From contig JAHWJJ010000015.1 of the NCBI GenBank assembly GCA_019348475.1, forward strand, positions 1-19,727: DNA of 19,727 nt, in the 5' to 3' direction. Below, in pieces: positions 1 to 19,727 of this stretch. The position numbers and the translations under genes are program-made. This stretch comes from Gemmatimonadota bacterium (GTDB lineage Bacteria > Gemmatimonadota > Gemmatimonadetes > Longimicrobiales > Longimicrobiaceae). The first letter of the stretch is position 1. Each line of letters opens with the position of its first letter. Below the pieces are notes generated by a model that had not been told where the DNA came from, searched no databases, and worked only from the letters and a program-made list of their open reading frames with translations.

Positions 1-863
1 GCAGGGCCACCGCCCGCGCCGCGCGCCAGCGGGCCGCGGTGGATCGCGGCGTGCCGGCGGAGCGGGGGGAGAACACGAACACCTTCCTTTTCCAGCTGCG
101 CGCCGGCCGCCGCCTGCGCCAGGCGACGGCGGCGGTAGACGATGCGGGACAGCAGGATGCTGAACTCGTACAGCAGCACCAGCGGCGCCATCATCATGAG
201 CGTCACCGTGATCACGTCGCCGGGGGTGAGCACGGCGGCCAGGATGGTGATGCCGGCGACGGCGTGGCGGCGCTTGCTGGCCAGGAACTCCGGCGTGACC
301 AGCCCCAGCGCCGACAGGATCAGGATCACCACCGGCAGCTCGAAGACGATCCCGAACGCCAGCAGCAGCCGCGTCACCATGGCCATGTACGGCCCGATGA
401 CGATGGACTGCTCCAGGAACTCCGTCTGAAAGCTCATGGTGAACCTGAGCGTCATGGGCAGCACCACCTTGTAGCTCATCACCACCCCGGCCACGAAGAG
501 CACCATCCCCATGTACAGCGCGGGGACGATCACCCGCTTTTCCGACGGCAGCAGCGCGGGGGCCAGGAACGCCCACACATGGTAGATGACGATGGGCGAC
601 GCCAGCACCAGCCCCGCGATCAGCGCCAGCTTCAGCGTGACGAAGAACGGGTCCGTAGGGCTCAGGTACTTGAGCTTGCCACCCTCCAGAAGCGGCTCGA
701 TGGGGCGGATGAGGAGCATCATGGCGTCCATCCGGTCCACCAGGATGAAGCCGATGATGGCCCCGCCGACGACGGCCAGCAGGCTCCACAGGGCCCGCCA
801 GCGCAGCTCCTCCAGGTGGTCCAGAAAGGGCATCTCGCCCGGGTTGCGTCCCAGCTTGCTCAT
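1..863 (-). CDS. tatC: Sec-independent protein translocase TatC (3' end beyond window)
   Basis: This is the polytopic core of the twin-arginine translocase, which binds Tat signal peptides and exports folded proteins across the inner membrane. The first 287 residues are visible and no stop is reached at the left edge. The N-terminus carries the family hallmark FLDHLEELRWR (residues 13-23), and LLAFGIVFELP (167-177) contains the conserved FG...FE.P element with Glu175. Six hydrophobic segments lie near residues 24-43, 74-97, 113-133, 162-185, 201-213 and 216-236. The ATG at 863 follows a purine-rich GAAGGGG and gives the usual N-terminus. E. coli TatC has about 258 residues, so this copy has a basic, proline-containing C-terminal tail of unknown length. 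It lies 73 nt after nrdR on the same strand and is probably read with the genes upstream. No tatA/tatB is seen here. Confidence 0.95.
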   Translation of the reverse strand, partial: MSKLGRNPGEMPFLDHLEELRWRALWSLLAVVGGAIIGFILVDRMDAMMLLIRPIEPLLEGGKLKYLSPTDPFFVTLKLALIAGLVLASPIVIYHVWAFLAPALLPSEKRVIVPALYMGMVLFVAGVVMSYKVVLPMTLRFTMSFQTEFLEQSIVIGPYMAMVTRLLLAFGIVFELPVVILILSALGLVTPEFLASKRRHAVAGITILAAVLTPGDVITVTLMMMAPLVLLYEFSILLSRIVYRRRRLAQAAAGAQLEKEGVRVLPPLRRHAAIHRGPLARGAGGGP

Positions 864-1473: not shown

Positions 1474-1503
1474 GCCTTTAGAACCCCGCTCCCGTCCCGC
1501 GGT

Positions 1504-3075: not shown

Positions 3076-3146
3076 CCGGGGATGGGGGGCGGCCCGCCCA
3101 CGCACCACCCCGTCCACTCGGCGCGATCCCCGCCCGGTCCCCCACC

Positions 3147-3181: not shown

Positions 3182-3220
3182 GAGAACTTCGGTGACCGAG
3201 CGACAGCCCGTCTCACGTCA

Positions 3221-3251
3221 CCCTTTCCCCACGCAGTTTGTGGGGGAAGGG
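3221..3251. repeat. REP-like inverted repeat, copy 2
   Basis: The arms CCCTTTCCCCAC (3221-3232) and GTGGGGGAAGGG (3240-3251) have one mismatch and flank the loop GCAGTTT. From CCCCAC to the end of the downstream GGGGATGGGGG it is identical to copy 1, including the sequence outside the hairpin. The unit is therefore a real dispersed repeat and not just any GC hairpin. Confidence 0.85.
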
Positions 3252-3336
3252 CCGGGGATGGGGGCGCGCGGCGCTCGCGCCATTCCTTCCGAAGCTCACT
3301 GCGTTGTCCCTCCGGCTCCGCCCGGCCCTTACGCCC

Positions 3337-4635: not shown

Positions 4636-4658
4636 TCGAATCAGGACTTCGCTGGGGT

Positions 4659-5537: not shown

Positions 5538-5541
5538 CGCC

Positions 5542-5961: not shown

Positions 5962-6659
5962 CAGATGCGCCCTTCGCGGGCCAGTGCGCCGATCAGCTCG
6001 CTGCTGATCCCCTCCAGCTCGCCCATGAAGCGGTTCAGGCGCCCGGTAAGGTAGTTGTACGCCATCGCTGCCGGAATCGCCACCACCAGGCCGCCGGCCG
6101 TGGTCACCAGCGCCTCGGCCACGCCCGGGGCCACGGCGGAGATGTTGCTGGAGCCGGACTCCACCACGCCCAGGAACGAGTGCATCACCCCCAGCACGGT
6201 CCCCAGCAGCCCCAGCAGCGGCGACACCGTCGCGACGATGGCCAGCCACTGGATCCCGCCGGAAAGCCCGTCGCGCTCCTCGCCCTCCTCCTTCTCCAGC
6301 ACGATGCGCAGCACCTCCAGCTGCGCGGGCGACAGGCCGCGCACGTCGCTCCCCTGGCGCGCGGCGCCGGGGCGCATCTCGCTGAAGAAGCCCATCCCGC
6401 GCCGGAACAGCCGCGTGAACGGCGACGCCGGCATCCCCCGCACCCAGTCGTGCGCTTCTTCCAGCCGCTCGGCCACCTCGATGCGCTGCATGAACTGGTC
6501 GGCCTCGCGGTGCAGCCGCCGGAACTGCACCAGCTTGAGCACGATGAGCGTCCAGGAGAGGACGGAGAACACGGCCAGCACCAGCATGATGATCTTGGTG
6601 GACGCGGTGCCCTCCGCGATCATGTTCCACGCCGCCGAAAACTCGCTTCCGCTCTGCAT
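5961..6659 (-). CDS. tolQ: TolQ/ExbB-family motor protein
   Basis: TolQ forms the pentameric proton channel of the Tol system. The 232-residue protein has three membrane segments (about 22-44, 136-160 and 183-205) and a cytoplasmic loop between the first two. The loop contains charged helices such as LEVLRIVLEKEEGEE. The conserved channel motifs ATVSPLLGLLGTVLGVM and GVAEALVTTAGGLVVAIPA are clear. The ATG at 6659 starts 17 nt after hemA, with only a weak purine-rich site before it. The frame stays open far upstream, but that extension runs antiphase through hemA and is a shadow. Confidence 0.93.
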   Translation of the reverse strand: MQSGSEFSAAWNMIAEGTASTKIIMLVLAVFSVLSWTLIVLKLVQFRRLHREADQFMQRIEVAERLEEAHDWVRGMPASPFTRLFRRGMGFFSEMRPGAARQGSDVRGLSPAQLEVLRIVLEKEEGEERDGLSGGIQWLAIVATVSPLLGLLGTVLGVMHSFLGVVESGSSNISAVAPGVAEALVTTAGGLVVAIPAAMAYNYLTGRLNRFMGELEGISSELIGALAREGRI

Positions 6660-6676
6660 CGTCCGCAGGTGAGGGG

Positions 6677-7978: not shown

Positions 7979-8601
7979 CGGCGGATGGACTGCTCCACGT
8001 CCTCGTCCCGTCCCGCGACCGCCAGGTCCACGAACTCGGGGGTGATCAGCTCGAACCAGAAGGCGCGACGCCGCGCCTCGTCGGCGGCCCAGCGCGCCTG
8101 CACCTCGTCCCGCACCCGCGCCAGGCGCGACGCCGCGCGCCCCAGGCCGGGGGTGACCACCGCCTCCAGCCGCTCGCGCAGCCGCCGGGCGAGCAGCGGC
8201 GACGCGCCGCCGGTGGAAAAGGCGACCACCACCTCGTCCCGGCGCAGGTGCGACGGCACGTGGAAGTCGGACTCCCCGCCCCCGTCCGCGCGGCTCACCA
8301 GGGCGCCGGCGGCCCGCGCGTCGTCCGCGACCCGCTGGTTGACGGCGGGATCGTTCGTGGCGGCGAAGACCAGGTGGTGGCGCTCCACGTCCGGCGAACG
8401 GTAGGGCCGCGGAAGCCAGACGAGCCGCAGGCGTTCCACCGTCGCCCGCAGCTCGTCCGTGGCCGTGGGCGCCACCACGGTGGGGCGCCCGCCGGCCTCG
8501 GCGAGCCCCGCCACCTTGCGCGCCGCCACCGCGCCGCCCCCGACCACCAAAGTGCGCAGCCGGCTCACGTCCAGCATCAGCGGATACGCGGCGGCGCTCA
8601 C
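7960..8601 (-). CDS. Precorrin-2 dehydrogenase / sirohydrochlorin ferrochelatase (CysG N-terminal type)
   Basis: Enzymes of this family oxidise precorrin-2 to sirohydrochlorin with NAD and in some cases insert iron, giving siroheme. The 213 residues contain a Rossmann motif VVGGGAVAARKVAGL (about 19-33), the conserved FAATNDPAVNQRVADDARAA segment, DFHVPSHLRRDEVVVAFSTG and SPLLARRLRERLE. These match the CysG N-domain/Met8/SirC family. There is no methyltransferase domain, so SUMT must be encoded elsewhere. The GTG at 8601 overlaps the preceding TGA stop (GTGA); an internal ATG nine codons later is less likely. The location between a HemX-like gene and hemA fits a tetrapyrrole operon. Confidence 0.9.
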   Translation of the reverse strand: MSAAAYPLMLDVSRLRTLVVGGGAVAARKVAGLAEAGGRPTVVAPTATDELRATVERLRLVWLPRPYRSPDVERHHLVFAATNDPAVNQRVADDARAAGALVSRADGGGESDFHVPSHLRRDEVVVAFSTGGASPLLARRLRERLEAVVTPGLGRAASRLARVRDEVQARWAADEARRRAFWFELITPEFVDLAVAGRDEDVEQSIRRCLSQS

Positions 8602-9422
8602 AGGAACCCCGCGCCCGCGCTCTCCGCGGCGCGCAGCAGCACGTACGCCGCCACCACGACGGCAAAGCCCACGACGGAAACCAGCGCGCCGCGCCACGCC
8701 CGCGCCGCGCCCTGTCCCGCGCGCGCGGCGAGCGCGGCCACGAACACGCCGAGCGTGATTACCCCCCACACGACTTTGGGGTTTCCGGCCTGCATGTCGA
8801 ACCCGAAGCGCTCCGACCACGCCCAGCCCAGGAGGAGCGAGACGGCCAGGAACGGGAGCCCCACCATCAGTGCCCGGCGGCCGATGCGGTCCAGCGTGTC
8901 CAGCGGGGGAAAGAAGCGGAAGACGGCGCCGAAGCGCTTTCCCTTGAGCTGCCGGAACTGCAGGAGGTACATCAGCCCCGCGGCGAAGGCGACGGTCAGC
9001 CCCGCGTATCCCGCCATGGCCAGGACCACGTGCAGGACGAACCATGGCCCGCGGAAGGCCATCTCCTGCGCCGCCGGGCGCATCCCCGCCACCTCGGCCA
9101 CCGCCGCCAGCGCGGCGGCGACGGGAACCAGCACCAGCCCCAGCGGGCCCGTGCGCCCCAGCGTCGCCAGCAGCAGCGACCCCAGCGCCACCAGCAGCGC
9201 CAGGACGGAGAGCGAGGGGCCCAGCCCCACCAGCGGCAGTTCGCCATAGCGCGCCGTGAACGCCGCCAGGGCGGCGCCGTGGGCGGCCACGCCGCCGGCC
9301 AGGCACGCCGTGGCCGCGGCGGGCAGGCGGCGCGCGCTGCGGGCCAGCGACACCCCCAGGAGCGCCGCCGCCAGGGCGTAGAACGCCAGGGCGACCACGT
9401 GCAGCGTCTGCGTCAGCTCCAT
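8598..9422 (-). CDS. CcsA/HemX-family cytochrome c assembly membrane protein
   Basis: The 274-residue protein is almost entirely hydrophobic, with about eight predicted membrane helices. Members of this family either handle heme for cytochrome c maturation (CcsA/ResC) or, as HemX, influence HemA levels next to heme genes. The segment LLGWAWSERFGFDMQAGNPKVV and the following WGVITLGVF resemble the tryptophan-rich WGxxWxWDPK-W region of HemX/CcsA, though the motif is degraded (NPK in place of DPK). Upstream is GPWFVLHVVLAMAGYAGLTVAF, a typical H-containing helix of the family. The ATG at 9422 gives MELTQTLHVVALAFYALAA. The overlap with the siroheme gene and the nearby hemA favour a HemX-like role. 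Heme binding itself is inferred. Confidence 0.82.
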   Translation of the reverse strand: MELTQTLHVVALAFYALAAALLGVSLARSARRLPAAATACLAGGVAAHGAALAAFTARYGELPLVGLGPSLSVLALLVALGSLLLATLGRTGPLGLVLVPVAAALAAVAEVAGMRPAAQEMAFRGPWFVLHVVLAMAGYAGLTVAFAAGLMYLLQFRQLKGKRFGAVFRFFPPLDTLDRIGRRALMVGLPFLAVSLLLGWAWSERFGFDMQAGNPKVVWGVITLGVFVAALAARAGQGAARAWRGALVSVVGFAVVVAAYVLLRAAESAGAGFL

Positions 9423-9445
9423 TCCGCCCCCTCCGGACGCAGAGA

Positions 9446-9467
9446 CGCCCTTCCCGGGGGAAGGGCG
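9446..9467. repeat. Perfect inverted repeat between LysM gene and ccsA-like gene
   Basis: The arms CGCCCTTCCC (9446-9455) and GGGAAGGGCG (9458-9467) are separated by two bases. The hairpin sits in the 85-nt gap between two minus-strand genes. It could be an mRNA-stabilising or attenuating structure, but no T-run follows, so I do not call a terminator. The C/G-rich arms resemble the repeats near 3045 and 3221 without sharing their loop. Confidence 0.6.
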
Positions 9468-9507
9468 CCGCCAGCACCGCCGGGCCTGCCCGCCAGCGCC
9501 GGGCTGG

Positions 9508-10566
9508 TCACGGCATCCGCGCCACGCGGCGCACGGGCAGCCCCACGGCGATGCGGGGCTGCTGCAGGTGCGTCACCCGCGCCGAGGCCGTCCCCTCCGT
9601 GACCTTGACCACCTGCATCCGGGCGACGGAGATCTCGGGGCGGGTGCCCCAGCGGCGGGCGGTGGAGGGGTCGTACAGCTCGAACTCGTCGCCCACGCCC
9701 ACGCCGGCGCTGCGGCCGATGTCCAGGAACAGGATGGACTCGGTGCGCTGCAGGGGCGTGTCGTCCCGAAAGGCCAGCACGCGGCCCTGCAGGTCGGCGT
9801 CCACGGCGGCCGGGCGCTCCAGCGTCTGGATGGGGAACGATTCCACGGGGATCACGGCGTCGCCCAGGCGCACCTGGTCGAACATCCCCACGATCACCAC
9901 CGTGGCGGTGGTCCCGTCCAGCGCCGCCACCGTGCCGATGCCGGTGGGAAGGTATACGCGCCCGGTGCGGCGGATCTCACGCCCTTCGCGCAGAAAGTGC
10001 AGCCGGTCGCCGACGGCCACGCGCGCGGGGTCCACGCTCACGAAGACGCGGTCGTACAGGTTGAGCTGCGAAGGCATGCGCGAGTTGATCACCGACTGGT
10101 ACTCCGCCTCGCGCAGGCGGCCCACCACCGGCACCTCGCGCGGGCGGGCCACGAAGGCGGCGCGGTAGAAGTCGCCCTGCAGCACCGCAGGCTGCTGTAC
10201 GGTCACGCCCAGGCGCAGCGTGGGCCCCCGGGGCCCCTCCCGCGGGCCAAAGAACGGCCCCTCGTCCACCACCTGCCCCGCGCAGGCGGGAAGCACCAGG
10301 CGCTCCGAGGGATAGATTCGCGCGGGGTCTTCGATGGTCGCGGCGTTCAGCCGGAAGATCTCCGGCCACAGGAACGGGTCGGAGAGGCAGGCGCGGGCGA
10401 TGTCCCACAGCGTTTCGCCGGGACGCACCACGTGGATCTGCGCCGGCTGCGCGGGCTCGTCCTGCGCGGCCAGCGGCGCGGCGGCAAGCAGTGCCGCGGC
10501 GACGACGACGGATGCGGTTGTTCTCACGGGTCCCCGAAGGCGGTTGCGTGCGGGCGTGGGATTCAC
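9508..10566 (-). CDS. Secreted LysM-domain protein
   Basis: This is a probable periplasmic or envelope protein that binds peptidoglycan. With the GTG start at 10566 it has 352 residues. A basic N-terminus and hydrophobic core end in APLAAQ (signal peptide, about residues 1-35). A LysM domain follows at about 44-93, beginning IHVVRPGETLWDIARACL. The rest (about 100-350) is beta-rich, with two segments of SH3- or barrel-like appearance (VGDRLHFLREGREI ... VYLPTGIGTVAALDG; VGVGDEFELYDPSTARRWG). I cannot name that part. Other possible starts are GTG 10527, with GGGGA close upstream, and ATG 10614, which would leave only about 13 nt of leader after the predicted promoter. The gene is first in the minus-strand run. 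Confidence 0.8.
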   Translation of the reverse strand: MNPTPARNRLRGPVRTTASVVVAAALLAAAPLAAQDEPAQPAQIHVVRPGETLWDIARACLSDPFLWPEIFRLNAATIEDPARIYPSERLVLPACAGQVVDEGPFFGPREGPRGPTLRLGVTVQQPAVLQGDFYRAAFVARPREVPVVGRLREAEYQSVINSRMPSQLNLYDRVFVSVDPARVAVGDRLHFLREGREIRRTGRVYLPTGIGTVAALDGTTATVVIVGMFDQVRLGDAVIPVESFPIQTLERPAAVDADLQGRVLAFRDDTPLQRTESILFLDIGRSAGVGVGDEFELYDPSTARRWGTRPEISVARMQVVKVTEGTASARVTHLQQPRIAVGLPVRRVARMP

Positions 10567-10633
10567 CGGAGTTTCGCCGGGGAGATCGGGCCGCGCAGAG
10601 AAGGAACGGTGCATGGCGGCCCGGCGTAGCCCA

Positions 10634-10662
10634 AGTGTAAGCTGGGCCCCGGCGAATGGCAA
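10634..10662 (-). promoter_or_regulatory. Predicted sigma70-type promoter for the LysM gene
   Basis: On the minus strand, TTGCCA (10662-10657, five of six matches to TTGACA) and TACACT (10639-10634, four of six to TATAAT) are separated by 17 bases. Transcription would start near 10627, about 60 nt before the favoured GTG. It is the only well-spaced promoter I found before the long minus-strand gene series, so it may drive several genes. It is predicted by eye only. Confidence 0.5.
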
Positions 10663-11002
10663 GGCGAATCGCGGAAAAACGGTTGAATCGACCGCCCGCG
10701 CCGCCAATCCCGTGCCGCATGCGCCACCGTGCACATCTCCAGCAGCCGCGCGGGTTCTGCTCGGAACAGGTGGAACCGGAACCGCTGATACGGGTGCAGA
10801 GCCGGAAAACTTTGCGGGTACGCCGCATCCCACGGTAACCCCCGAAAACCGCCCACTGCTCGCGGAGGTCGCAACGAGTCATCCTGAGCGAGCCGCCGCG
10901 CAGGCCGTGCCTCCGCACGATCCGTGGCGGCGACGGAAGGACCTTGCCCGCCGACTCGCGAGCCTGGATCCGCGCCGCGCCCCCTCCGCTCGCTTAGGCT
11001 CG

Positions 11003-11040
11003 CACCTCCCCCAAAAACCCCTGGGGGAGGTGAACTGCGC
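11003..11040. repeat. Inverted repeat plus GAACTGCGC tail
   Basis: Perfect 11-bp arms CACCTCCCCCA (11003-11013) and TGGGGGAGGTG (11022-11032) enclose AAAACCCC. The motif GAACTGCGC follows directly and also forms the loop region of the repeat at 3147-3181; its complement GCAGTT is the loop of the repeats at 3045 and 3221. I place it as a related, rearranged member of the same family. Confidence 0.7.
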
Positions 11041-11206
11041 TTTCGTGCCGCATGGTCCGACAGCGCCCGATGAATCAGGAATCACTGCCGGTGCGCCCTC
11101 CACGCCGTGAGGTCCCGAACTGCACCAGATCCGCGCGCTGCGCGACCTTCTGGGCACGACCTGCTCCTGTAGCCGCGGAACATCGGCCAGCGCGCGCGAA
11201 CGACAG

Positions 11207-11234
11207 GAGCCGGCGGACGCGCGTCCGCCGGCTC
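11207..11234 (-). terminator. 28-nt perfect palindrome, probable transcript-end hairpin
   Basis: The sequence is its own complement over 28 bases (GAGCCGGCGGACGC joined to GCGTCCGCCGGCTC). It starts 22 nt beyond the stop of the minus-strand lipoprotein gene, the right place for a terminator or 3' stabilising hairpin. The flanking base run is CTCCTGTCG and not a T-tract, so intrinsic termination would be weak. A protein-binding site is also possible. Confidence 0.5.
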
Positions 11235-11255
11235 TTCGGGAAGCGCGCGGAAGGG

Positions 11256-12695
11256 CTACTCGCCGCCGGTGGCGGCGCGATCCCCCAACCCGGCGCCGCG
11301 GCGGCAGACGGCCACGTACTCCGGCTCGGCGCCCTGGCACGACTGGCCGCGCTGCGCCGGCGCGCTCACCAGGGTGCTGATCATCTCCCCGACCACGCGG
11401 TAGCAGTGCCGCTTGGGGTCCGCCCCCGTTACGGCGCGGCAGAAGCGCAGCCCCTCCTCGGGATCCGCGGCCAGGTTCACCAGGTTCTGCACGACGCCGA
11501 TCATGCACCACAGGCCGCCGCCCCCCTCGGCCATGCTCCCGGCGCGCCCGCACAGCTCCAGCGAGCGTGCGTGGTTCTGCGAGGCGAGCGCGGTGACGTC
11601 GCGCCCCAAGCTGCCGAAGCAGAGTGCGACCATCGATTCCGGCGCCCGCTCGCACGCCCGGGCGGTCGCGGCCACGTCGCCGCCGTTGAAGAACAGAATG
11701 GCCGACGTCTGCATGTTGTAGCACGACTCCTGGTACTTGAGCGCCACCGCGTTGCACGGGTACAGCGGGTCGTTGCGGTCCAGCGGCCGCCAGGGTCCGT
11801 GCTGCATCCCCGCGTGCGCGGCGTGCGCACCGCTCCCCTCCTGCGCGTGCTCCCCGTGCGCGTGCTCCCCGTCCTCCTGCGCCGCCGCGGCGTGCGATCC
11901 GCCGTGCGCCGCGTGCGCGTCGCCCGCCGCGGGCTGCGCATCGTGCCCGCCGTGCCCCTGCGTTCCCGCGTGTCCCTCGGCGGTGTGGTGCGGATGGGTG
12001 ACGCGCACGATGTTCTCCATGAACACGCCGCCGTAGCACGAATGGCGGACGAAGTCGTCGGTCGCCAGGTCGCACGCCTCCAGCGACATGGGAAGGTGGT
12101 TGTCGTGCACGGCCATCAGCCCGTGCCCCATGCCGTGCGCGCATTGAAAGAACAGGAAGGGCGACGCGCGGTGCGGCTCGCACATGGCGTCCAGCTCCGC
12201 AGTGCCGGGAAGCTCGCCCTGCCGCGCCATCGAAAGAAAGTACCCCTGCACGACGCCGTGGTAGCAGCCGGACATCTGCGTGGGCGGGCAGGCGGCGAAG
12301 GTGGCGGCCAGCGTCTGCGGCGTGCGATACGCGGCGATCCCCAGCCCGTGCGCCAGGGCGTGGGCGTTCAACCGCACGTCGGCGTCCACGTTCACCAGCG
12401 TGTCGAGCACCTCCATCGTGCGGCCGATGCCGGCCTGGTCGATGAGCGCGACCAGGTTGCGCTCCACGCACGCCGCCTTGTTGCGGAACGGGCTGCCGCA
12501 CTGCCGCCGCACCCAGCGCGAGATCTCGCCCGCGGGCGATTCCGGGGTCCACACGCGCGTCTCCGGCGCGTTCGGCAGGTCCGGCGCCGGACCGCCGGCG
12601 GCGCCGGTCCGCGCGGAGGGGGTGCACGCGGCCAGCAGGACGGCGCAGGCGGCCACGGCCGCGCGCGAGAGCACTCGGTGCAGGGAGAACGTCAT
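11256..12695 (-). CDS. Cysteine-pair repeat lipoprotein with histidine-rich insert, unknown family
   Basis: I do not recognise this 479-residue protein. It starts at ATG 12695 with a signal peptide ending in LAAC (Cys24), so it is a predicted lipoprotein. The mature part has exactly 18 cysteines in nine pairs: 66/76, 136/144, 172/185, 208/220, 314/325, 348/359, 382/397, 419/431 and 453/464. The second Cys of most pairs begins a segment such as CYHGVVQGYF, CAHGMGHGLM, CYGGVFMENI, CFGSLGRDV or CMIGVVQNLV. This suggests degenerate helical-hairpin repeats, each possibly locked by a disulfide (Sel1/TPR-like in style, by inference). Between pairs four and five lies a low-complexity insert (about 234-299) with 15 histidines plus Ala, Gly and Glu, a likely metal-binding loop. 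HALAHGLGIAAY and CAHGMGHGLM add histidines in the folded part. It stands alone between two gene-poor stretches. Confidence 0.85.
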   Translation of the reverse strand: MTFSLHRVLSRAAVAACAVLLAACTPSARTGAAGGPAPDLPNAPETRVWTPESPAGEISRWVRRQCGSPFRNKAACVERNLVALIDQAGIGRTMEVLDTLVNVDADVRLNAHALAHGLGIAAYRTPQTLAATFAACPPTQMSGCYHGVVQGYFLSMARQGELPGTAELDAMCEPHRASPFLFFQCAHGMGHGLMAVHDNHLPMSLEACDLATDDFVRHSCYGGVFMENIVRVTHPHHTAEGHAGTQGHGGHDAQPAAGDAHAAHGGSHAAAAQEDGEHAHGEHAQEGSGAHAAHAGMQHGPWRPLDRNDPLYPCNAVALKYQESCYNMQTSAILFFNGGDVAATARACERAPESMVALCFGSLGRDVTALASQNHARSLELCGRAGSMAEGGGGLWCMIGVVQNLVNLAADPEEGLRFCRAVTGADPKRHCYRVVGEMISTLVSAPAQRGQSCQGAEPEYVAVCRRGAGLGDRAATGGE

Positions 12696-13279
12696 CGTCA
12701 CTTCGGATCGGGTCGGTTCAAGGGTATCGGGACGCCGGCCGGAAAAAGTGGCTCCCGCCGCGGATGCGCGCAACGTCCAGCGCACGTCCCGCCCGCCCGC
12801 GTTGCATCGCCCGCGCCGGGCGAACAGAACGCGTGGCCGCGGCGAGGCCATGCGGCGAGGGCCGGCGGGTGTTTCCGCTTCCGTCGCGGCGGCTTCAGCA
12901 TCCCGTTCGAGCTCGGTCAGCCCGAGGGGTCGGCCTGTCCGCTCCGTTGTCCAGGGTCCAGCCGGGGCGACCTCTTACAGATCGCAATCGGGTGGATGAT
13001 GCGCCCCGGCGGGCCCCGGCGCGCCACCTCGATCCCTGCCCATCCAAAAAATGCGGATCCCGTCCCCTCGCCGGCAGCATGCCTGTTACCAGGGGACGCC
13101 TGCATCCTGCGCATCCCATCCGGTCCGCCTCCGGCCGTCGCACCCCCATCCATCCAGCACTGCCCGCCTTCGCCCGACGGGTTTCCTGTTTGCGGCCGCT
13201 CGTGCACGACAGGTCTCGGGCGCGGAGTCCAGAACGATCCTCCGCAATCCGCGATCACACGCCACCGCTCGTGCCGGCG
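12696..13279. other. 584-nt stretch without a recognisable gene
   Basis: This is non-coding as far as I can see. It lies upstream of the minus-strand lipoprotein gene and downstream of the minus-strand FAD oxidoreductase gene. The lipoprotein promoter should be near 12700-12790, but I found only a poor match (TACCCT as a -10). Open frames through the stretch lack ribosome sites, family motifs and plausible residue composition. I saw no strong inverted repeat, tRNA or long direct repeat here. Confidence 0.6.
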
Positions 13280-14440
13280 TCACAGGAACTCGGGCGCGGC
13301 GTTCGGCTGGCCCTCGGCGAAGCGGGAGGGGCGCAGGGGATGGACGTCCATGGACGTGGCCGCTCCATCCAGGATGATCTCCGACAGCAGCTGCCCCAGT
13401 GCGGGGGAGTGCATCACCCCGTGCCCCGACGAGCCGTTGGCCAGGAACAGGTTCTCCACTCCCGGCGCGGCGCCCAGCAGCACGTGCCGGTCCGGCGACA
13501 TCTCGTACAAGCCCGCCACGCACGCGGCGCGGTCGACCCGCGCGTCGCGCAGGGACGGGATCCAGCGATGCGCGCGCGCGGTCACCTGCGGCAGCCACGC
13601 TTCGTCGAAGGTGGTGTCGAAGGGGTCCGCCGGGTTGGGCTGGTGGGACCAGAGCATCACCACCCGGCCGTCGCGCACGCGCAGGTGGAACTCCGCTTCC
13701 ACCAGGATGGTGAGCGGCATGCACTCCGGCAGCCCGGCGAACGGCTCCGTCACCGCCACCTGCCGCCGCAGCGGATGCACGGGGATGTCGACTCCCGCCA
13801 TCGCCGCCACCTTCCCCGCCCAGGCGCCCGCCGCGTTGACCACCGCTCCCGCGCCCACCTCTCCCCGGTCCGTGCGCACCGCCGCGACGCGGCCGTCCCG
13901 GGCGGCCATCCCGCGGACGGCGGCGCCGTACTCGAACCGCACGCCCATGCGGCGGGCCCCCTCCGTGTAGCCGCGCAGGATCTCCATCGGCCGCGCAAAC
14001 CCGTCCGTGGGGCAGTAGACGCCGCCCACCAGCCCCTCCGCGGCCACCGCGGGGTTGATCTGCAGCGCCTCGTCCACCGTCACCGGCCGCGCCGCAAGGA
14101 CGCCCAGGCGGCGCTGCATGGCCTGCGCGTGCAGCAGCCCGGCCAGCGTTTCCTCGCGCTCGGTGAGGAAAAGGTAGCCGCAGGGGCGGTAGCCGGGGTC
14201 CAGCCCCACTTCCACGGGAAAACGCAGCAGCTTTTCCCAGGCGAGCAGCGACAGCCGCACGTTGGGCTCGGACCCGAACTGCACGCGAAAGCCGCCGGTG
14301 GCCTTTCCCGTGCTCCCCATCCCGGGGCCGGGCGCGGCGTCCAGCACCAGCACGCGCGTGCAGCCGCCCATGGCCAGGTGCCAGGCCACGCTGGCCCCGA
14401 TCACGCCGCCGCCCACGATCACCACGTCGTACGTCTGCAC
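13280..14440 (-). CDS. DAO-family FAD-dependent oxidoreductase (sarcosine oxidase beta/glycine oxidase-like)
   Basis: The protein is a flavoenzyme that probably oxidises a secondary or N-methyl amino acid; the substrate cannot be read from the sequence. The 386 residues start with a dinucleotide-binding motif, VVIVGGGVIGASVAWHLA (about 6-23). The FAD-contacting GSTGKATGGFRVQFG, DAAPGPGMGST, the mid-domain VVNAAGAWAG and the C-terminal FLANGSSGHGVMHSPALG follow, all in the order expected of DAO-family proteins. I chose GTG 14440 because GGGAGGAG precedes it by a few bases and it gives the family N-terminus. Another GTG at 14482 would add 14 residues. It is divergent from the GH84 gene with 187 nt between starts. 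The lack of sarcosine-oxidase alpha/gamma/delta neighbours argues for a monomeric enzyme. Confidence 0.87.
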   Translation of the reverse strand: MQTYDVVIVGGGVIGASVAWHLAMGGCTRVLVLDAAPGPGMGSTGKATGGFRVQFGSEPNVRLSLLAWEKLLRFPVEVGLDPGYRPCGYLFLTEREETLAGLLHAQAMQRRLGVLAARPVTVDEALQINPAVAAEGLVGGVYCPTDGFARPMEILRGYTEGARRMGVRFEYGAAVRGMAARDGRVAAVRTDRGEVGAGAVVNAAGAWAGKVAAMAGVDIPVHPLRRQVAVTEPFAGLPECMPLTILVEAEFHLRVRDGRVVMLWSHQPNPADPFDTTFDEAWLPQVTARAHRWIPSLRDARVDRAACVAGLYEMSPDRHVLLGAAPGVENLFLANGSSGHGVMHSPALGQLLSEIILDGAATSMDVHPLRPSRFAEGQPNAAPEFL

Positions 14441-14627
14441 CGCTCCTCCCGGCCGGGCACCGCTGCCGCACGGACGGTTCACCGCCCCCTGCGCCGAATG
14501 ATCACACCTCGCCGCCGGGAGCGAAAGAGCGCCCGCGGCGGTGGCGAGCGGTAGGGGGCGGGCGTACTTTGCGGAGCAGGTTCCGGTGTTCCGTAGCGAG
14601 CCGCCGCTGAGGACGAAGGAGAGCGGG

Positions 14628-15689
14628 ATGGACGTGGAGCTGGGGGTGATCGAAGGATTCTACGGCCGGCCCTGGTCGTGGGAGGAGCGCGAGGCGGCGG
14701 TCGCCTTTCTGGCGCCGCATGGGTACCGCTTCTACCTGTATGCGCCCAAGATGGACGCGTACCTGCGGCGGCGCTGGCAGCAGGACCACCCGCGCGAGAC
14801 GGCCGACGCCCTGGCGAGCCTGGCCGGACGGTGCGCGGAGCTGGGCGTGCGCTTCGGCGTGGGGGTGAGCCCGTTCGAAGTGCAGGAGTTCGGGGCGGCG
14901 GAGCGCGAGGCGCTGGCCCGCAAGCTGGCGTTCTTCGACGCCATCGGCGTGCGGGACCTGGCCATCCTGTTCGACGACATGCGCGGCGACGTGCCCGGGC
15001 TGGCGGAGGGGCAGCTGCAGGTGGTGGAGTGGGCCGCGGCGCGCACGGGGGCGGACCGGGTGATCGTCTGCCCCAGCTACTACACCGACGATCCCGTGCT
15101 GGACCGCGTCTTCGGAGCGCGGCCGGAGGGATACCTGGAGCGGCTGGGCGCCGGGCTGGACCCGCGGATCGAGATCTTCTGGACCGGCGAAGAGGTGGTG
15201 TCGCGCGCGTACTCGCCGGGGCACCTGCGGCGCGTGGCGGACCAGCTGCGCCGCAAGCCGTTCCTGTGGGACAATTATCCGGTGAACGACGGGCAGCGGA
15301 TGTCGCAGTACCTGCACGTCCGCGGCTTTACCGGCCGCCCCGCGGGGATGGCGGGCCTGATCGCGGCGCACGGCATCAACCCCGCCCTGCAGCCCACGCT
15401 CACCTGCATCCCCGCCCTCACCCTGGTGGAGAGCTACCGCCGCGGCGAGGACTACGCCTATGGGGAGGCGACGCTCCGGGCCGCGCGGCAGGTGCTGGGG
15501 GACGAGCTGGGGACGCGGCTGTACGAGGACGTGCTGGTGCTGCAGGACATCGGCCTGGACCGGCTGGGCGAGCGCGAGGCCATGCTCCGCGAGCGCTACG
15601 CCGGCGCGGACCATCCGGGTGCCCGCGAAGTCGTGGCCTGGCTGGACGGCGACTACCGCATCACGGACGAGATGGTGCAGACGCAGTAG
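14628..15689 (+). CDS. GH84-type beta-N-acetylglucosaminidase (O-GlcNAcase-like)
   Basis: Enzymes of this family remove beta-linked N-acetylglucosamine by substrate-assisted catalysis. The 353-residue protein is essentially the catalytic barrel alone. Visible family motifs are GVIEGFYGRPWSWEER (residues 6-21), YLYAPKMDAYLRRRW with Lys41, the catalytic Asp pair ILFDDM (Asp116-Asp117), VIVCPSYYTDDP, IFWTGEEVVSR and FLWDNYPVND (Asp215, Asn216). The ATG at 14628 is preceded by AAGGAG at six bases; the frame is open further upstream but without support. No signal peptide, lipobox or carbohydrate-binding module is present, so the enzyme is predicted to be cytoplasmic, unlike many secreted bacterial GH84 enzymes. 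The substrate could be GlcNAc from cell-wall turnover or a modified protein; the sequence does not decide. Confidence 0.9.
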   Translation: MDVELGVIEGFYGRPWSWEEREAAVAFLAPHGYRFYLYAPKMDAYLRRRWQQDHPRETADALASLAGRCAELGVRFGVGVSPFEVQEFGAAEREALARKLAFFDAIGVRDLAILFDDMRGDVPGLAEGQLQVVEWAAARTGADRVIVCPSYYTDDPVLDRVFGARPEGYLERLGAGLDPRIEIFWTGEEVVSRAYSPGHLRRVADQLRRKPFLWDNYPVNDGQRMSQYLHVRGFTGRPAGMAGLIAAHGINPALQPTLTCIPALTLVESYRRGEDYAYGEATLRAARQVLGDELGTRLYEDVLVLQDIGLDRLGEREAMLRERYAGADHPGAREVVAWLDGDYRITDEMVQTQ

Positions 15690-15696
15690 GAACGAT

Positions 15697-15754
15697 GTCT
15701 CACGCGGAGCACGCGGAGAGCCGCTCCTCGCGGCCGGCGTGCGCCGCGTGAGAC
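15697..15754. repeat. Inverted repeat after the GH84 gene
   Basis: The arms GTCTCACGCGG (15697-15707) and CCGCGTGAGAC (15744-15754) are perfect over 11 bp around a 36-nt GC-rich spacer. The structure begins 8 nt after the GH84 stop and could end or stabilise its mRNA. The spacer repeats ACGCGGAG. No T-run follows. Confidence 0.6.
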
Positions 15755-15865
15755 GTGGTGTTCCGCCGCGCGCGGACGATCTGGCGGACGGGTCTGGCGC
15801 TGCCCATGTTGTGCGGCGCCGGGGCGGAACCGCGGACGGCTGAATCCCACCAGTAGACAGATCCA

Positions 15866-16744
15866 GTGGCAGACGAACGGACGATCCAGCACGTGGCCGT
15901 GCTGGGTGCGGGGACCATGGGGAACGGGATCGCGCAGGTGTGCGCGATGGCGGGGTGCGAGGTGTCGCTCTTCGACGCGGAGCCGGACGCGGTGGAGCGG
16001 GCGCTGAACGCCATCCGCGCCAACCTGGACAGGGGCGTGGAGCGCGGAAAGGTGAGGCTGGAGACCAGCGACCTGGCCATCCGCAGCCTGCGCAAGGCGC
16101 CTGACCTGGCCGACGCCGCGTCCAGGGCGGACCTGGTGATCGAGGCCGTCCCGGAGCGGATGGAGCTGAAGACGGAGATCTTCGCCGAACTCCATCGGCT
16201 GGCGCCGGCGCACGCCATCCTGGCCACCAACACCTCGTCGCTAAGCGTCACCCGCATCGGTCAGGCGACGGGGCGCCCGGAGCGCGTGATCGGGCTGCAC
16301 TTCTTCAATCCCGTGCACATCATGAAGCTGCTGGAGCTGGTGCGCGGACGGGAGACCTCGGGGGAGACGGTGGATGCGTGCCTGGCGTTCGCCCGGCGCA
16401 TCGGCAAGGAGCCGATCGTGGTCAGCGACACGCCGGGGTTCGCCTCCTCGCGCCTGGGCGTGGTGCTGGGGCTGGAGGCGATGCGGATGGTGGAGCAGGG
16501 CGTCGCCACGCCGCAGGACATCGACCGTGCGATGGAGCTGGGCTACAACCATCCCATGGGCCCGCTCAGGCTGACGGACCTGGTGGGGCTGGACGTGCGG
16601 CTGGGGATCGCCGAGTACCTGCACGCGCAGCTGGGCGGCGAGCAGTACCGCCCGCCCGAGCTGCTGCGGCGGATGGTGGCGGAGGGAAGGCTGGGGAAGA
16701 AGAGCGGACAGGGCTTCTACGACTGGACGCAGGAGGGACGGTGA
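15866..16744 (+). CDS. 3-hydroxyacyl-CoA (3-hydroxybutyryl-CoA) dehydrogenase
   Basis: The enzyme oxidises (S)-3-hydroxyacyl-CoA with NAD, or works in reverse in butanoate/PHB-type metabolism. The 292 residues show the NAD motif VAVLGAGTMGNGIAQ (Gly14-Gly19), TNTSSLSVTRI (Ser124), LHFFNPVHIMKLLELV (His145-Glu157 catalytic pair) and the dimerisation domain with YNHPMGPLRLTDLVGLDV. The position usually held by the active-site Asn in PGFxxNR is Ser195 here (PGFASSRLG). I recall this variant in other homologues, so the protein is probably still active. The start is GTG 15866 with no strong ribosome site. Its TGA overlaps the GTG of the enoyl-CoA hydratase gene (GTGA), indicating an operon for two consecutive beta-oxidation steps. 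Confidence 0.93.
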   Translation: MADERTIQHVAVLGAGTMGNGIAQVCAMAGCEVSLFDAEPDAVERALNAIRANLDRGVERGKVRLETSDLAIRSLRKAPDLADAASRADLVIEAVPERMELKTEIFAELHRLAPAHAILATNTSSLSVTRIGQATGRPERVIGLHFFNPVHIMKLLELVRGRETSGETVDACLAFARRIGKEPIVVSDTPGFASSRLGVVLGLEAMRMVEQGVATPQDIDRAMELGYNHPMGPLRLTDLVGLDVRLGIAEYLHAQLGGEQYRPPELLRRMVAEGRLGKKSGQGFYDWTQEGR

Positions 16745-17523
16745 GCCTGTACGAGACACTGCGGATCGAGCAGGACGGCGCCGTGGCCGTCCTCACCATC
16801 GACCGCCCCGAAAAGCGCAACGCCCTCAGCGGCCAGGTGCGGGCCGAGCTGGTCGCCGCGCTGGACGCGCTGCGCGACGACGGGACCGTGCGCGTGCTGG
16901 TGATCACGGGCGCGGGCGACAGGGCGTTCGTCGCCGGCGCCGACATCGGCGAGTTCGCGGAGCGCACCCCGCTGGAGCAGCGCGCGGCGATGACCGGCCG
17001 GCGGGTGTTCGACGAAGTGGCCGCGTATCCCAAGCCCGTGATCGCCATGATCAACGGCTTTTGCCTGGGCGGCGGGTGCGAACTGGCGCTGGCGTGCGAC
17101 GTCCGCATCGCCGCGGAGAGCGCCCGGCTGGGGCAGCCGGAGATCAACCTGGGGATCATCCCCGGCGGCGGGGGCACCCAGCGCCTGCCGCGCGTCGTCG
17201 GCACCGGCCAGGCCATGCGGCTGATCCTGTCCGGCGAGATCATCGACGCCGCCGAGGCGCTGCGCATCGGCCTGGTCGACGTGGTCCATCCCGACGCCGC
17301 CCTGCACGAGCGGGCGCTGGAGTTCGCGCGGGGGATGGCCGCGAAGTCGCCGGTCGCGCTGCGCATGGCCAAGTCCGCCGTGCGCGCCGCCGCCGAGATG
17401 CCCCTCTCCGCCGGCGTGCAGTACGAGACGGAGCTGTTCGTCACCTGCTTTGCCAGCGACGACAGGCGCGAAGGGGTCGCGGCCTTCCTGGAGAAGCGGC
17501 CCGCGTCGTTCGCCGGCCGGTAG
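16741..17523 (+). CDS. Enoyl-CoA hydratase
   Basis: The enzyme adds water to trans-2-enoyl-CoA, giving the substrate of the dehydrogenase encoded just upstream. The 260-residue crotonase-fold protein has RAFVAGADIGEFAE (oxyanion-hole region), INGFCLGGGCELALACD with catalytic Glu114, and LGQPEINLGIIPGGGGTQRLPR with catalytic Glu134. Both glutamates are present, supporting a true hydratase and not another crotonase-family reaction. The start is GTG 16741 within the GTGA overlap. Length and motifs are canonical, with the C-terminal EKRPASFAG typical of the family. The gene for a thiolase is not in view. Confidence 0.95.
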   Translation: MSLYETLRIEQDGAVAVLTIDRPEKRNALSGQVRAELVAALDALRDDGTVRVLVITGAGDRAFVAGADIGEFAERTPLEQRAAMTGRRVFDEVAAYPKPVIAMINGFCLGGGCELALACDVRIAAESARLGQPEINLGIIPGGGGTQRLPRVVGTGQAMRLILSGEIIDAAEALRIGLVDVVHPDAALHERALEFARGMAAKSPVALRMAKSAVRAAAEMPLSAGVQYETELFVTCFASDDRREGVAAFLEKRPASFAGR

Positions 17524-17774
17524 GGCGCCGATCCCCTCCGATTGAAACGGCCGGACGCACACCGCTCGCGGCCCGTTCCGGGACCCGCCAACCGCGCTGG
17601 CTCCCGCGCCGCGACTCCCGCGTCACCCGGGCACGGCGACGAGGGTCCCGATTCCCACCACACTGGCGGGCGCCTGTCGCGCGCGGCCTTCGAACCGTAG
17701 ATTTGGCGCCGCCGCGGGTACATGATTCAGCACCGCGGCCCTCCCCCACCCCCCGCGTCCCGATCCACACGCCC

Positions 17775-18074
17775 ATGCTCGAGACCTTTACCATCGAAAC
17801 GTTCCAGCCGCGCCTCGGCGAGATCTTTCACATCGTGGTGGACGACGAGACGCGTCTGCCCACCAAGCTCACCGAGGTGTTCCCCTGGGGTCCGGGGGCC
17901 GCGGCGGGACGAGACCGGCATCCGTTCTCGCTGATCTTCCACACCGTCCCCCAGGCCGTCTATCCGCAGCAGACGTACCGGGTGGAGAACGACAACATGG
18001 AGCCGTTCGAGCTCTTTCTGGCCCCCATCGGCCCCGACGAGCGCGGGATGCGCTACGAGGCCGTGTTCACCTGA
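17775..18074 (+). CDS. DUF6916-type small protein
   Basis: This is a 99-residue protein of unknown function. The pattern LETFTIETFQPRLGEIFHI at the start, HPFSLIFHTVPQAVYPQQTY in the middle and LFLAPIGPDERGMRYEAVF at the end matches what I remember of the DUF6916 family, whose members often lie near tail-collar proteins. It has no signal peptide, membrane segment or cysteine and looks like a compact, mostly beta protein. The ATG at 17775 has no Shine-Dalgarno-like sequence, yet it is the only sensible start because the family begins at this Met-Leu. A 251-nt gap separates it from the hydratase gene, and it converges with the GNAT gene. Confidence 0.75.
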   Translation: MLETFTIETFQPRLGEIFHIVVDDETRLPTKLTEVFPWGPGAAAGRDRHPFSLIFHTVPQAVYPQQTYRVENDNMEPFELFLAPIGPDERGMRYEAVFT

Positions 18075-18101
18075 CCGCCTCGGCCGGACGAGCACGAACG
18101 G

Positions 18102-18136
18102 GAGGGGCGGACGCTGCAGCGCATCGGCCGCCCCTC
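18102..18136. terminator. Hairpin between convergent genes, possible bidirectional terminator
   Basis: The arms GAGGGGCGG (18102-18110) and CCGCCCCTC (18128-18136) surround a 17-nt loop that itself contains CTGCAG. The hairpin begins 28 nt after the DUF6916 stop and lies between two convergent genes. No T-run is present on either strand, so this would be a GC-hairpin terminator of uncertain strength. Confidence 0.45.
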
Positions 18137-18153
18137 TGCGTTCCCCGCGAATG

Positions 18154-18174
18154 CGCCGGAGACCGTCTCCGGCG
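18154..18174. terminator. Second hairpin between convergent genes
   Basis: The arms CGCCGGAGAC (18154-18163) and GTCTCCGGCG (18165-18174) are perfect over 10 bp around a single base. It follows the hairpin at 18102 by 17 nt and precedes the GNAT gene end by 65 nt. Two stacked hairpins at a convergent junction fit a bidirectional stop signal, though no T-tract is visible. Confidence 0.45.
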
Positions 18175-18239
18175 GCGGACATGCCCACCCTCCGGCCGGC
18201 ACCGCCGCCCGCTCGTCCGGGTTATCCGCCTCTGGTTCG

Positions 18240-18719
18240 TCAGGCCGGCACCGCCGCCGGGTGCCGCTCCATCAGCAGGTACACGCCTTTCTCCTCCGCC
18301 TGGACGAAGCCGAGCCGCTCGTACAGGCTGCGCGCGGGGTTGAAGATCTCCACGTGGATGCTGACCTTGCGGCCGCTGGCCTCGCCCTCCGCCAGAATGC
18401 CGCGCAGCAGGCGCGTCCCCAGCCCCCGGCCGCGATGTTCCGGCATCAGCGCGATGTCCACCACGCGGATGTCATCGGGCCAGCGCGCCACGTACAGCCG
18501 GCCGACGGGCTCGCCGTCGAGAAGGATCAGGTCCCACGAGGTGTCGGTGTAGTTCTGATGCCAGTACTGGTGCTGCGCGTGGAACTGCTGGCTTACGAAC
18601 GCCGCCTTCTGCTCCGGCGTCCACGGCACCTGCTTGAGCTCATCCTCGCGAGTGGTGGCGTACAGCCGGTGCAGAAACTCCAGGTCGGCGTCCGTGGCGG
18701 CGCGCAGCGTGACATTCAT
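18240..18719 (-). CDS. GNAT-family N-acetyltransferase
   Basis: The protein is a predicted acetyl-CoA-dependent acetyltransferase. The 159 residues contain the acetyl-CoA pyrophosphate-binding loop RGRGLGTRLL (about 96-105) after the strand RVVDIALMPEH, and the C-terminal NPARSLYERLGF typical of GNAT proteins. The N-terminal segment TTREDELKQVPWTPEQKAAF followed by FHAQHQYW is distinctive. I associate it with GNAT proteins encoded beside DUF6916 and tail-collar genes; this is from memory. The ATG at 18719 gives the usual MNVTLRAATDADL start, although the frame is open to 18767. It lies 131 nt after the end of the collar gene on the same strand, with a GC hairpin between. The substrate is unknown. 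Confidence 0.88.
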   Translation of the reverse strand: MNVTLRAATDADLEFLHRLYATTREDELKQVPWTPEQKAAFVSQQFHAQHQYWHQNYTDTSWDLILLDGEPVGRLYVARWPDDIRVVDIALMPEHRGRGLGTRLLRGILAEGEASGRKVSIHVEIFNPARSLYERLGFVQAEEKGVYLLMERHPAAVPA

Positions 18720-18800
18720 GGCCGTTCGAGGCTGTTCGTGTGGTACGTGTGCGAGGAGTGGAGCCATTTCCGGAAGAAGTGTTCTCCCGCAGGCGCGAAG

Positions 18801-18822
18801 GGGGCGGCCCTGGGGCCGCCCC
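18801..18822. terminator. Perfect hairpin between collar gene and GNAT gene
   Basis: The arms GGGGCGGCCC (18801-18810) and GGGCCGCCCC (18813-18822) are separated by two bases. Read on the minus strand, it lies about 29 nt after the collar gene stop and before the GNAT start, where it could end or attenuate the collar transcript. The sequence after it (CCTTCGCG) has no T-run. Confidence 0.5.
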
Positions 18823-18850
18823 GCTACGGGTACTGCGGGCCGCTTCCGCC

Positions 18851-19363
18851 TCAGGGCCGCTGCGGGAAGATTCCCTGGAGCGCGATGCAGAAGTTGAGGG
18901 TCAGGTACGGCTGCATGTTGTTGTGCGGCAGCCCGCCGCCGGCCGGCGCGATGACCTGCGGGGCCATCGTCTGCAGTGCACCGGGAGCGGCGAAGATCGC
19001 GTTGCCACGGCCGAAGTAGCGGCCCACGGGCTGCGTGTTGTTCCCGTCGTCGTTCGTGGTGTTCACGACGTGGTTGTGGACGGGGATCTCGCTCACGAGC
19101 AGCGTAATGCTCTCCACACCGCTCATCTCGCCCAGGTCACGCAGGCTCAGCCCCTGCCCCTGACCCGGCTGCATGGGCGCGTTGTCCAGCATGTTCGGGA
19201 GCGCAAAGGTACTCTTGCCGTCGCCGCCATATACAGTGCCCAGCAGGGCGAAGAGCGCCGTGTTCTGCGAGATCGGCATGAGCTGCCCGTTGCAGAACGC
19301 CCACCCTGTGGGCGGAAAGTTGAACGGGAAGATGCGGATCTCCGCCAGGAATTGGTCGGACAT
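18851..19363 (-). CDS. Phage tail collar domain protein (MdpB-type), intact copy
   Basis: This 170-residue protein belongs to the microcystin-dependent-protein/tail-collar group. The N-terminal collar domain (about 6-62) includes FLAEIRIFPFNFPPTGWAFC, NGQLMPISQNTALFALLG and YGGDGKSTFALPN, all diagnostic. The middle has VESITLLVSEIPVHNHVV, with the conserved PxHxH-like histidines, and the end LPHNNMQPYLTLNFCIALQG, the usual hydrophobic C-terminal strand. Related phage proteins form trimeric fibre tips, but free-standing chromosomal copies have no assigned role. The ATG at 19363 has GAGGAGAG about eight bases upstream, and that site overlaps the stop of the preceding collar gene, implying coupled translation. 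No phage structural genes are nearby. Confidence 0.93.
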   Translation of the reverse strand: MSDQFLAEIRIFPFNFPPTGWAFCNGQLMPISQNTALFALLGTVYGGDGKSTFALPNMLDNAPMQPGQGQGLSLRDLGEMSGVESITLLVSEIPVHNHVVNTTNDDGNNTQPVGRYFGRGNAIFAAPGALQTMAPQVIAPAGGGLPHNNMQPYLTLNFCIALQGIFPQRP

Positions 19364-19376
19364 TTGGGCGCTCTCC

Positions 19377-19727
19377 TCAGGTCTGGCTCGGGAAGACCCC
19401 GAACAGGGAGATGATGAAGTTGACGCAGAGGAACGGCTGCGTGTTCTCGTGCGGCTGACTCCCGCCCGCGGGGGTGATCGCCTGCGGGTTCAGCGGCACG
19501 GGGTCCATGGCGTCCACGTACACGTCACCGGAGGCGATCGCGGGGGCAAAGTTGGGTACCGGATCGCGGCCCGTGGCCGTACCCGCAGTCGCCAGGACCG
19601 CGTGGCTGTGGGCGGGAATCTGCTGCACCGTCAGCGTCTCCTGCTCCGTCACGGCCATTTAGCCGATCTGGGACGTGGTTCCATCGGGAAACGTTCCCAT
19701 GGGGCTCGGAACCCGGCTGGCCCGGTT
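19377..19727 (-). pseudogene. Second tail collar protein, interrupted by in-frame TAA; 5' end beyond window
   Basis: The last 93 codons (ATG 19658 to stop 19377) encode the C-terminal half of a second MdpB-type protein: TEQETLTVQQIPAHSHAVLA, then PHENTQPFLCVNFIISLFGV at the end. Directly before that ATG is TAA (19661-19659). The same frame continues open to the window edge and encodes RVPSPMGTFPDGTTSQIG, which looks like the collar-to-middle region. Aligned with the intact copy, TSQIG-stop-MAVTEQETLT pairs with LRDLGEMSGVESITLL without gaps, so TAA replaces a Glu (or Gln) codon. A gene finder would report only the 93-residue fragment, which lacks a ribosome site. It may be a recent nonsense mutation or a base-call error; a functional C-terminal fragment is less likely. 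Confidence 0.75.

Follow-up and report, generated by a model that had tools for sequence, protein, structure and literature searches.

The stretch of DNA studied here (the window) is an entire contig of 19,727 nucleotides (C216; JAHWJJ010000015.1, positions 1 to 19,727 of the forward strand) from a Gemmatimonadota bacterium (assembly GCA_019348475.1), and its right end carries part of a cassette encoding collar proteins of the phage-tail type (PF07484), a GNAT acetyltransferase and a small DUF6916 protein. It is near certain that these genes make up a genuine conserved set in bacteria; the set is also old and independent of phage genes. No description of it was found in the literature searched, which left most subscription papers outside its coverage. 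Gene content, gene order, conservation and motifs were observed directly, and they are best read as a host-encoded extracellular fibre module in which a hetero-oligomer of collar proteins would work with a surface-anchored giant protein, a reading to which we give a probability of about 40%. A host surface or secreted fibre system had been put forward in the original prediction, made from the letters of the window; it is still the best reading, and that interpretation as a whole is supported in part. If it is true, a fibre module that is either secreted or placed on the cell surface is shared among bacteria and has so far gone unrecognised.

Pfam confirmed the identities predicted for the three complete genes at the end of the window. 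The DUF6916 protein (99 aa; 17775..18074, plus strand) scores 94.4 bits against PF21880, with a curated cut-off of 27 (4.4e-27), and its gene converges on that of the GNAT acetyltransferase (159 aa; 18240..18719, minus strand; PF00583, 50.6 bits). The open frame of the latter reaches 18767, and the ATG at 18719 is the likely true start since it fits the many close relatives of 159 aa among the matches listed; the close relatives of both proteins that bear a name belong to Longimicrobium. A collar gene follows (170 aa; 18851..19363, minus strand; PF07484, 89.3 bits against a cut-off of 24, 1.5e-25), the product of which belongs to class C3 (see below), carries an HxH motif and ends in FPQRP, and the contig closes with the C-terminal part of a collar gene of class C2 (19377..19727, minus strand). 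This part, a 93-aa open reading frame (ORF), has PHROG tail-protein matches down to 3.2e-10, and the fragment alone gave no Pfam match. Two tandem collars had been predicted, and both are present, but the second is cut by the contig end and a third lies on contig C18 of the same genome (4.08 Mb in 504 contigs, 76.6% complete). The only other collars found in this genome are at the right end of C18, both above the PF07484 cut-off: an intact collar and the piece of the truncated C2 that includes its N-terminus (L004 11151-11447). Over its final 131 nt, C18 overlaps the window end taken in reverse, with 11 mismatches; as these all fall within the first 77 nt of the overlap, and as an in-frame stop near the window edge is not present in the overlapping C18 end, stop and mismatches look like a contig-edge error. 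Most simply, the right end of the window would continue on C18. Since C18 holds a complete collar and the missing part of C2, the locus has three collars rather than two, and the simplest joined order would be giant, C1, C2, C3 and GNAT, with DUF6916 converging on the GNAT gene. The giant is an ORF of 1976 aa on C18 (L004 4627-10557) with a lipoprotein-like start, as judged by eye, and Big_2 and Big_9 Ig domains. A prophage or injection locus just beyond the right edge had been considered as a possible source of the collar genes; by contig overlap, collars and this giant lipoprotein-like gene lie there instead.

The co-occurrence of these families extends far past close relatives and mostly involves three collar paralogues, as is borne out by a neighbourhood scan of 80 loci in eight phyla. 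Genome contigs were scanned with class-3 collars alone, blind to the other genes, and the best 80 of 570 confirmed loci were searched with hidden Markov models of collars (built from the window, C18 and nine plasmid loci) and of GNAT and DUF6916 (built from the window and seven plasmid loci). At least three collars were found in 74 of the 80 loci, and in all 76 loci with two or more they stand on one strand, with a median gap of 14 nt. GNAT was found within 3 kb in 67 loci, DUF6916 within 4 kb in 61 and both in 60 (66, 58 and 57, respectively, under stricter scores). The loci belong to Pseudomonadota (28), Acidobacteriota (17), Bacteroidota (12), Chloroflexota (8), Actinomycetota (7), Bacillota (5), Verrucomicrobiota (2) and Gemmatimonadota (1), each phylum having at least one locus with GNAT and DUF6916 together; Deinococcus plasmids add a ninth. 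The set spans Gram-negative and Gram-positive bacteria. Within the DNA of the 80 loci, 68 GNAT matches lie in the 563 kb within 4 kb of collars and 2 in the 615 kb beyond (p 1e-19), and the corresponding numbers for DUF6916 are 63 and 2 (p 4e-18).

The same association appears when whole genomes are counted. Among 298 Gemmatimonadota genomes, DUF6916 was found in 11, collars in 15 and both in 10 (p 2.5e-14), nine of the ten having them on one contig within about 6 kb, and the remaining one (G001) on separate contigs of a draft assembly. Among 296 Bacteroidota genomes the numbers are 9, 80 and 9, always within 4 kb (p 5e-6). When both phyla are pooled (594 genomes), collars accompany DUF6916 in 19 of the 20 genomes that have it, at a distance of about 6 kb or less in 18; sampling was centred on the window's genome and one cassette-bearing Flavobacterium genome, both counted, and without these two the figure is 17 of 18. 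DUF6916 is rarely found apart from collars, which are the more frequent of the two and often come in triplets. The window copy of DUF6916 is the sole one found in its genome. One other locus (L027; contig C691 of genome G002) has two DUF6916 genes and four collars in 20 kb, which look like a complete cassette plus a portion of another.

Nine plasmid loci are annotated, three of Deinococcus and one each of Aminobacter, Comamonas, Ruegeria, Rhizobium, Sinorhizobium and Pontibrevibacter. Each has three adjacent 'tail fiber' genes with a large or giant gene beside or near them, and seven have GNAT as well as DUF6916, GNAT being absent from two of the Deinococcus loci (L036 and L037). In the records seen such genes are labelled 'tail fiber protein', and they are easily mistaken for phage debris. 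It is conceivable that the cassette is a decayed or domesticated remnant of a phage or tailocin, its collars standing outside any working host module; the PF07484 and PHROG tail-protein matches would fit this, as would the nearest solved structures of the collars, T4 gp12 and another phage fibre, and a tyrosine recombinase/integrase gene annotated about 6 kb from the triplet of Spirosoma (L187). We regard this as very unlikely. Neither sheath, tube, capsid nor terminase is annotated in the nine plasmid loci or in two more loci, no protein family outside the cassette recurs in more than 8 of 101 loci (the clusters being identified in part), DUF6916 has no match among 50,697 phage records at E 1, and GNAT and DUF6916 were found in none of 23 collar loci on viral contigs, many of which are short. 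Decay is further disfavoured because it would not preserve three collar classes and their order, which are kept across phyla, and, within the loci covered here, a prophage or tailocin remnant was rejected. The expectation that no phage structural genes are in view also held: nine more proteins of the window and residues 1-426 of the giant, scanned against PHROG, gave no match to capsid, terminase, sheath or tube, the hits being weak ones to LysM-, Ig-, reductase- and protease-like regions and an enoyl-CoA-hydratase-like ORF. Large surface proteins, variable flanks and plasmid location would be compatible with a device for contact-dependent antagonism or defence. This seems most unlikely, as PADLOC gave 0 matches at E 0.01 for three window proteins, no further family passes the same 8 of 101 loci, and each of eight genomes reached through the loci has one triplet (four of them with one extra collar match elsewhere); within the proteins and loci covered, a defence system was rejected.

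The collars evidently form three old paralogous classes. In a FastTree phylogeny of 286 collars from 99 loci, C1 (92 proteins), C2 (94) and C3 (94) split on branches with support of 78, 93 and 98, respectively, the classes having been assigned on the same tree whose branches were afterwards checked, and six proteins of two loci (L035 and L038) fell outside all three. The order C1-C2-C3 was found in 73 of the 99 loci and C2-C1-C3 in 9, and the commonest C-termini are FPSQN in C1, FPSPT or FPSQT in C2 and FPPRT or FPPRG in C3. The HxH motif was present in all 286 collars by a loose pattern search of residues 75-125 and is invariant in the collar alignment (A5). A collar profile search finds phage fibre tips, and the IPxHxH segment aligns with LPSHQH of the fibre in PDB 8kec, which we take to be that of cyanophage A-1(L). 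In T4 gp12 the HxH motif binds metal and knits the trimer. Because the three classes are kept together, a heterotrimer of C1, C2 and C3 would be the simplest inference. In three Paenibacillus loci (L066, L086 and L108) two collars form a single fusion protein of about 333 aa with a third collar after it, which suggests that the classes may be physical partners; no GNAT was found in these three loci, and other Paenibacillus loci (L076 and L186) have one.

The second element of the proposed module is the giant protein. One family connected by BLAST (a single-linkage cluster), with members of 392 to 3271 aa, was found in at least 63 of 101 loci and within 6 kb in at least 50 of 80, lower bounds because genes were called by simple ORF rules and antisense ORFs were sometimes chosen over giants. 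The export or anchoring domains of giants next to collars differ between lineages: those of Flavobacterium have a type IX secretion system (T9SS) sorting domain, those of Paenibacillus three SLH domains, those of Desulfosporosinus three CWB2 domains and those of Ruegeria and Sinorhizobium autotransporter domains. Among the Bacteroidota loci with two or more collars and no GNAT, 13 of 24 have a downstream protein of at least 450 aa on the same strand with a signal-like start (by eye), several of them with T9SS-like ends. A stretch of about 160 aa, mostly C-terminal, is common to 40 giants of 34 loci (e.g., L021 6480-9875, L113 and L072) and consists of beta-helix-like rungs followed by approximately LRQR..LPGYAG..CPxP. 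No universal giant domain is claimed, as a model of the C-terminal domain failed at E 1e-4 to recover the giant of the window's genome, itself one of its seeds.

In cassettes with a GNAT the collars lack an N-terminal extension, and most begin with Met-Ala or Met-Ser. It is nevertheless likely that the collars act outside the cytoplasm, because some related collars carry Sec- or twin-arginine translocase (Tat)-like signals and because genes next to collars are enriched in Tat-like signals. In loci where neither GNAT nor DUF6916 is found, Sec-like signals are seen on all three collars of L123 and on L184, and Tat-like signals on both collars of L165 and on L164 and L152; among neighbouring genes, Tat-like signals were found in 34 of 417 within 3 kb of collars and in 11 of 413 more than 4.5 kb away. 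All these signals were read by simple rules and by eye without a trained predictor, and one (L156_1350) is clearly false. The exoproteome of Ruegeria pomeroyi in co-culture with Synechococcus includes a PF07484 protein (YP_165745.1; PMC4949626), and COG4675 proteins are listed in a soil metaproteome (PMC5579227); collar-type proteins are thus expressed in nature, whether or not they belong to this set.

A number of observations weigh against the proposed module. The AlphaFold2 model of the collar monomer is poor (pLDDT 49.5), and GNAT and DUF6916 were not both found in 20 of the 80 loci, partly owing to contig ends. As the contig of L123 comes from a viral collection and is 5.2 kb long, the GNAT that it lacks may lie past its ends. 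Of the 34 Tat-like matches near collars, about 6 are giants or chance and 4 belong to one divergent Paenibacillus family, which is PhoX where tested; the window has no Tat-like neighbour, and neither have 64 of 97 loci. The host has a Tat gene, since the window itself carries tatC (3..863, minus strand; Pfam TatC, 1.8e-61; TIGR00945 above cut-off) outside the cassette; the genome, which is 76.6% complete, gave no TatA/B/E. The exoproteome protein is a collar-domain protein that would be only a candidate for cassette membership. It is possible, if quite unlikely, that the collars stay in the cytoplasm as a stress- or quorum-responsive, lectin-like complex whose link to the giant is co-regulation only. 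The lack of an N-terminal extension in GNAT-bearing cassettes is consistent with this, as are RhiB and MrpB, described as collar-domain proteins of other operons, whereas the signals on homologous collars, the Tat-like signals on DUF6916 paralogues and the collar-domain protein of the exoproteome (PMC4949626) argue for export.

The distinctive N-terminal segment ascribed to the GNAT in the original prediction proved to be real, being conserved across 84 cassette GNATs with a consensus of about YastR.eEla.vpW...qk.aFl..QF.aQh..y...yp. The best NCBIfam model is RimI (TIGR01575), below its cut-off (33.5 against 86.4 bits), and 12 of the 34 PDB matches, including NAA50 and RimI, carry the name of an N-terminal or ribosomal-protein N-acetyltransferase. 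The leading hypothesis, which is not a result, is that the GNAT may acetylate the Ala/Ser N-termini of collars. Residue 2 is small (Ala, Ser, Thr, Gly or Pro) in 250 of the 266 collars of GNAT-bearing loci and in 35 of 78 collars of GNAT-free loci (the other 43 being 21 Glu, 17 Asp and 5 others), counts that for class 3 are biased by the class-3 scan patterns. Against this hypothesis, the other 22 PDB matches are unspecific, drug or other acetyltransferases, and 16 of the 266 collars carry Asp at residue 2. Correction for kinship left 5 supported independent pairs with a median p of 0.5, of which about 1.5 agree, 0 disagree and 3.4 are without difference, too few to decide. The test left out five GNAT-free loci with short flanks (L042, L061, L066, L113 and L118) as well as 21 collars whose start was unclear or bore a signal, and L067 (GNAT, 82 bits) was counted as GNAT-free in the raw count and as GNAT-bearing in the corrected test. 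Furthermore, eight loci of C1-C3 type without GNAT keep a small residue 2 in 15 of 21 collars, which speaks against a tight link to GNAT. The evidence that the GNAT modifies a component of the cassette, as had been proposed, is suggestive only.

GNATs are functionally very diverse, and within an extracellular complex the enzyme might act on the giant, on DUF6916 or on a small molecule rather than on collar N-termini. We judge this somewhat unlikely. In its favour, the residue-2 association is not significant once kinship is corrected for, and 37 of 62 GNAT-DUF6916 pairs have their two genes on different strands, some with overlapping ends; on the other hand, N-terminal acetyltransferases are among the solved structures that this GNAT clade matches, and GNAT-free collar sets more often start with Met-Glu or Met-Asp or have signals of their own. 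The GNAT-free cassette of Deinococcus sp. QL22 (L037), in which all three collars start with Met-Glu or Met-Asp, is adjoined by lasso peptide biosynthesis B2 and PqqD family genes (9729-12323). On the Spirosoma oryzicola plasmid (L187) a formyltransferase-family gene (8128-9081) directly follows the triplet, in the position that GNAT has in many cassettes, and beyond it lies a giant protein with a cellulose-binding domain.

For DUF6916, AlphaFold2 predicts a mostly beta fold (pLDDT 90.6), and a fold search of the PDB and viral libraries turned up nothing clearly related. No paper on the family was found within the same literature coverage. A DUF6916 copy with a Tat-like signal (e.g., SRRKFLRTG) is present in 14 loci, mostly of Acidobacteriota, and three of these copies were confirmed by Pfam. 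In the proposed scheme DUF6916 would be a partner that holds collars during or after folded export, Tat hitchhiking being a guess.

The mechanism that best accommodates these observations is one in which GNAT and DUF6916 would serve the signal-less form of the collars. Met would be removed from collars starting with Met-Ala or Met-Ser, and the RimI/NAA50-like GNAT would then acetylate the new N-termini. One chain each of C1, C2 and C3 would form a heterotrimer held by the HxH motifs. The collars would probably build a metal-clamped, T4-gp12-like oligomer whose place of action, shared with a giant for which export is predicted, would be outside the cytoplasm. The giant Ig/beta-helix protein could be a surface shaft or scaffold, anchored by the device of each lineage. 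The complete version, i.e., a phage-independent surface machine of at least nine phyla in which an obligate 1:1:1 HxH-metal heterotrimer, N-terminally acetylated by a dedicated GNAT and exported folded on a Tat-exported DUF6916-type partner, would cap a giant lineage-anchored beta-helix/Ig fibre, is unlikely to be right in every part. If the reading as an extracellular fibre module is right, DUF6916 would gain a role and a bacterial protein N-acetyltransferase would gain a testable substrate.

Other genes were noted within some cassettes and elsewhere in the window. Five loci (L031, L037, L091, L100 and L104), from Deinococcus, Herpetosiphon and a Prolixibacteraceae metagenome-assembled genome among their hosts, contain a related family of 375 to 419 aa inside the cassette, with Peripla_BP_6 in L031 and L100 and a Tat-like start in L031, L037 and L100. 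In Aminobacter and Ruegeria, proteins of 494 aa (L032 8558-10042) and 405 aa (L034 8598-9815), respectively, are encoded between C3 and GNAT; by sequence similarity both are propeller-like, with weak FG-GAP and Tectonin matches in L032. The window has a Tol-Pal-like cluster on the minus strand (about 2265-6630), with an OmpA-family Pal-like protein, a PD40-propeller TolB-like protein and TolA/TonB-, TolR- and TolQ-like ORFs judged by eye, and on the cassette side of the contig a beta-N-acetylglucosaminidase of the NAGidase family (14541-15689, plus strand; Pfam, 4.5e-56).

Several known systems can be compared with the cassette. YcgR-N, MrkH-N and PilZ-type barrels were among those considered. 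The GNAT core is like that of the RimI/NAA50-type N-terminal acetyltransferases found among its solved matches, but the cassette enzyme falls below the RimI cut-off, has an N-terminal segment of its own and is bound to the cassette. ESAT-6 is not known to have a signal peptide. In Mycobacterium marinum an acetyltransferase is reported to act on the N-terminus of secreted ESAT-6 (PMC10653941), a precedent for acetylation of a secreted protein's N-terminus; substrates and secretion route differ, and the two cases are set side by side by description only. Host-encoded genes of the collar-domain or phage-tail type are also described in small operons, namely RhiB of rhiABCD in Rhizobium leguminosarum and MrpB in Microcystis (PMC13133039, PMC6969944 and PMC11448079). 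By these descriptions they differ from the cassette in being single collar genes with rhiA, rhiC and rhiI/rhiR or mrpA as neighbours, and no rhi gene is named in the annotation, itself incomplete, of the nine plasmid loci. Finally, phage fibre tips (T4 gp12, PDB 1ocy, and the long tail fibre of PDB 8kec) share the collar-domain match and, in 8kec, the aligned HxH segment, whereas the cassette collars, without shaft or virion genes, are free-standing proteins of about 170 aa that come in three fixed classes and belong to a host operon.

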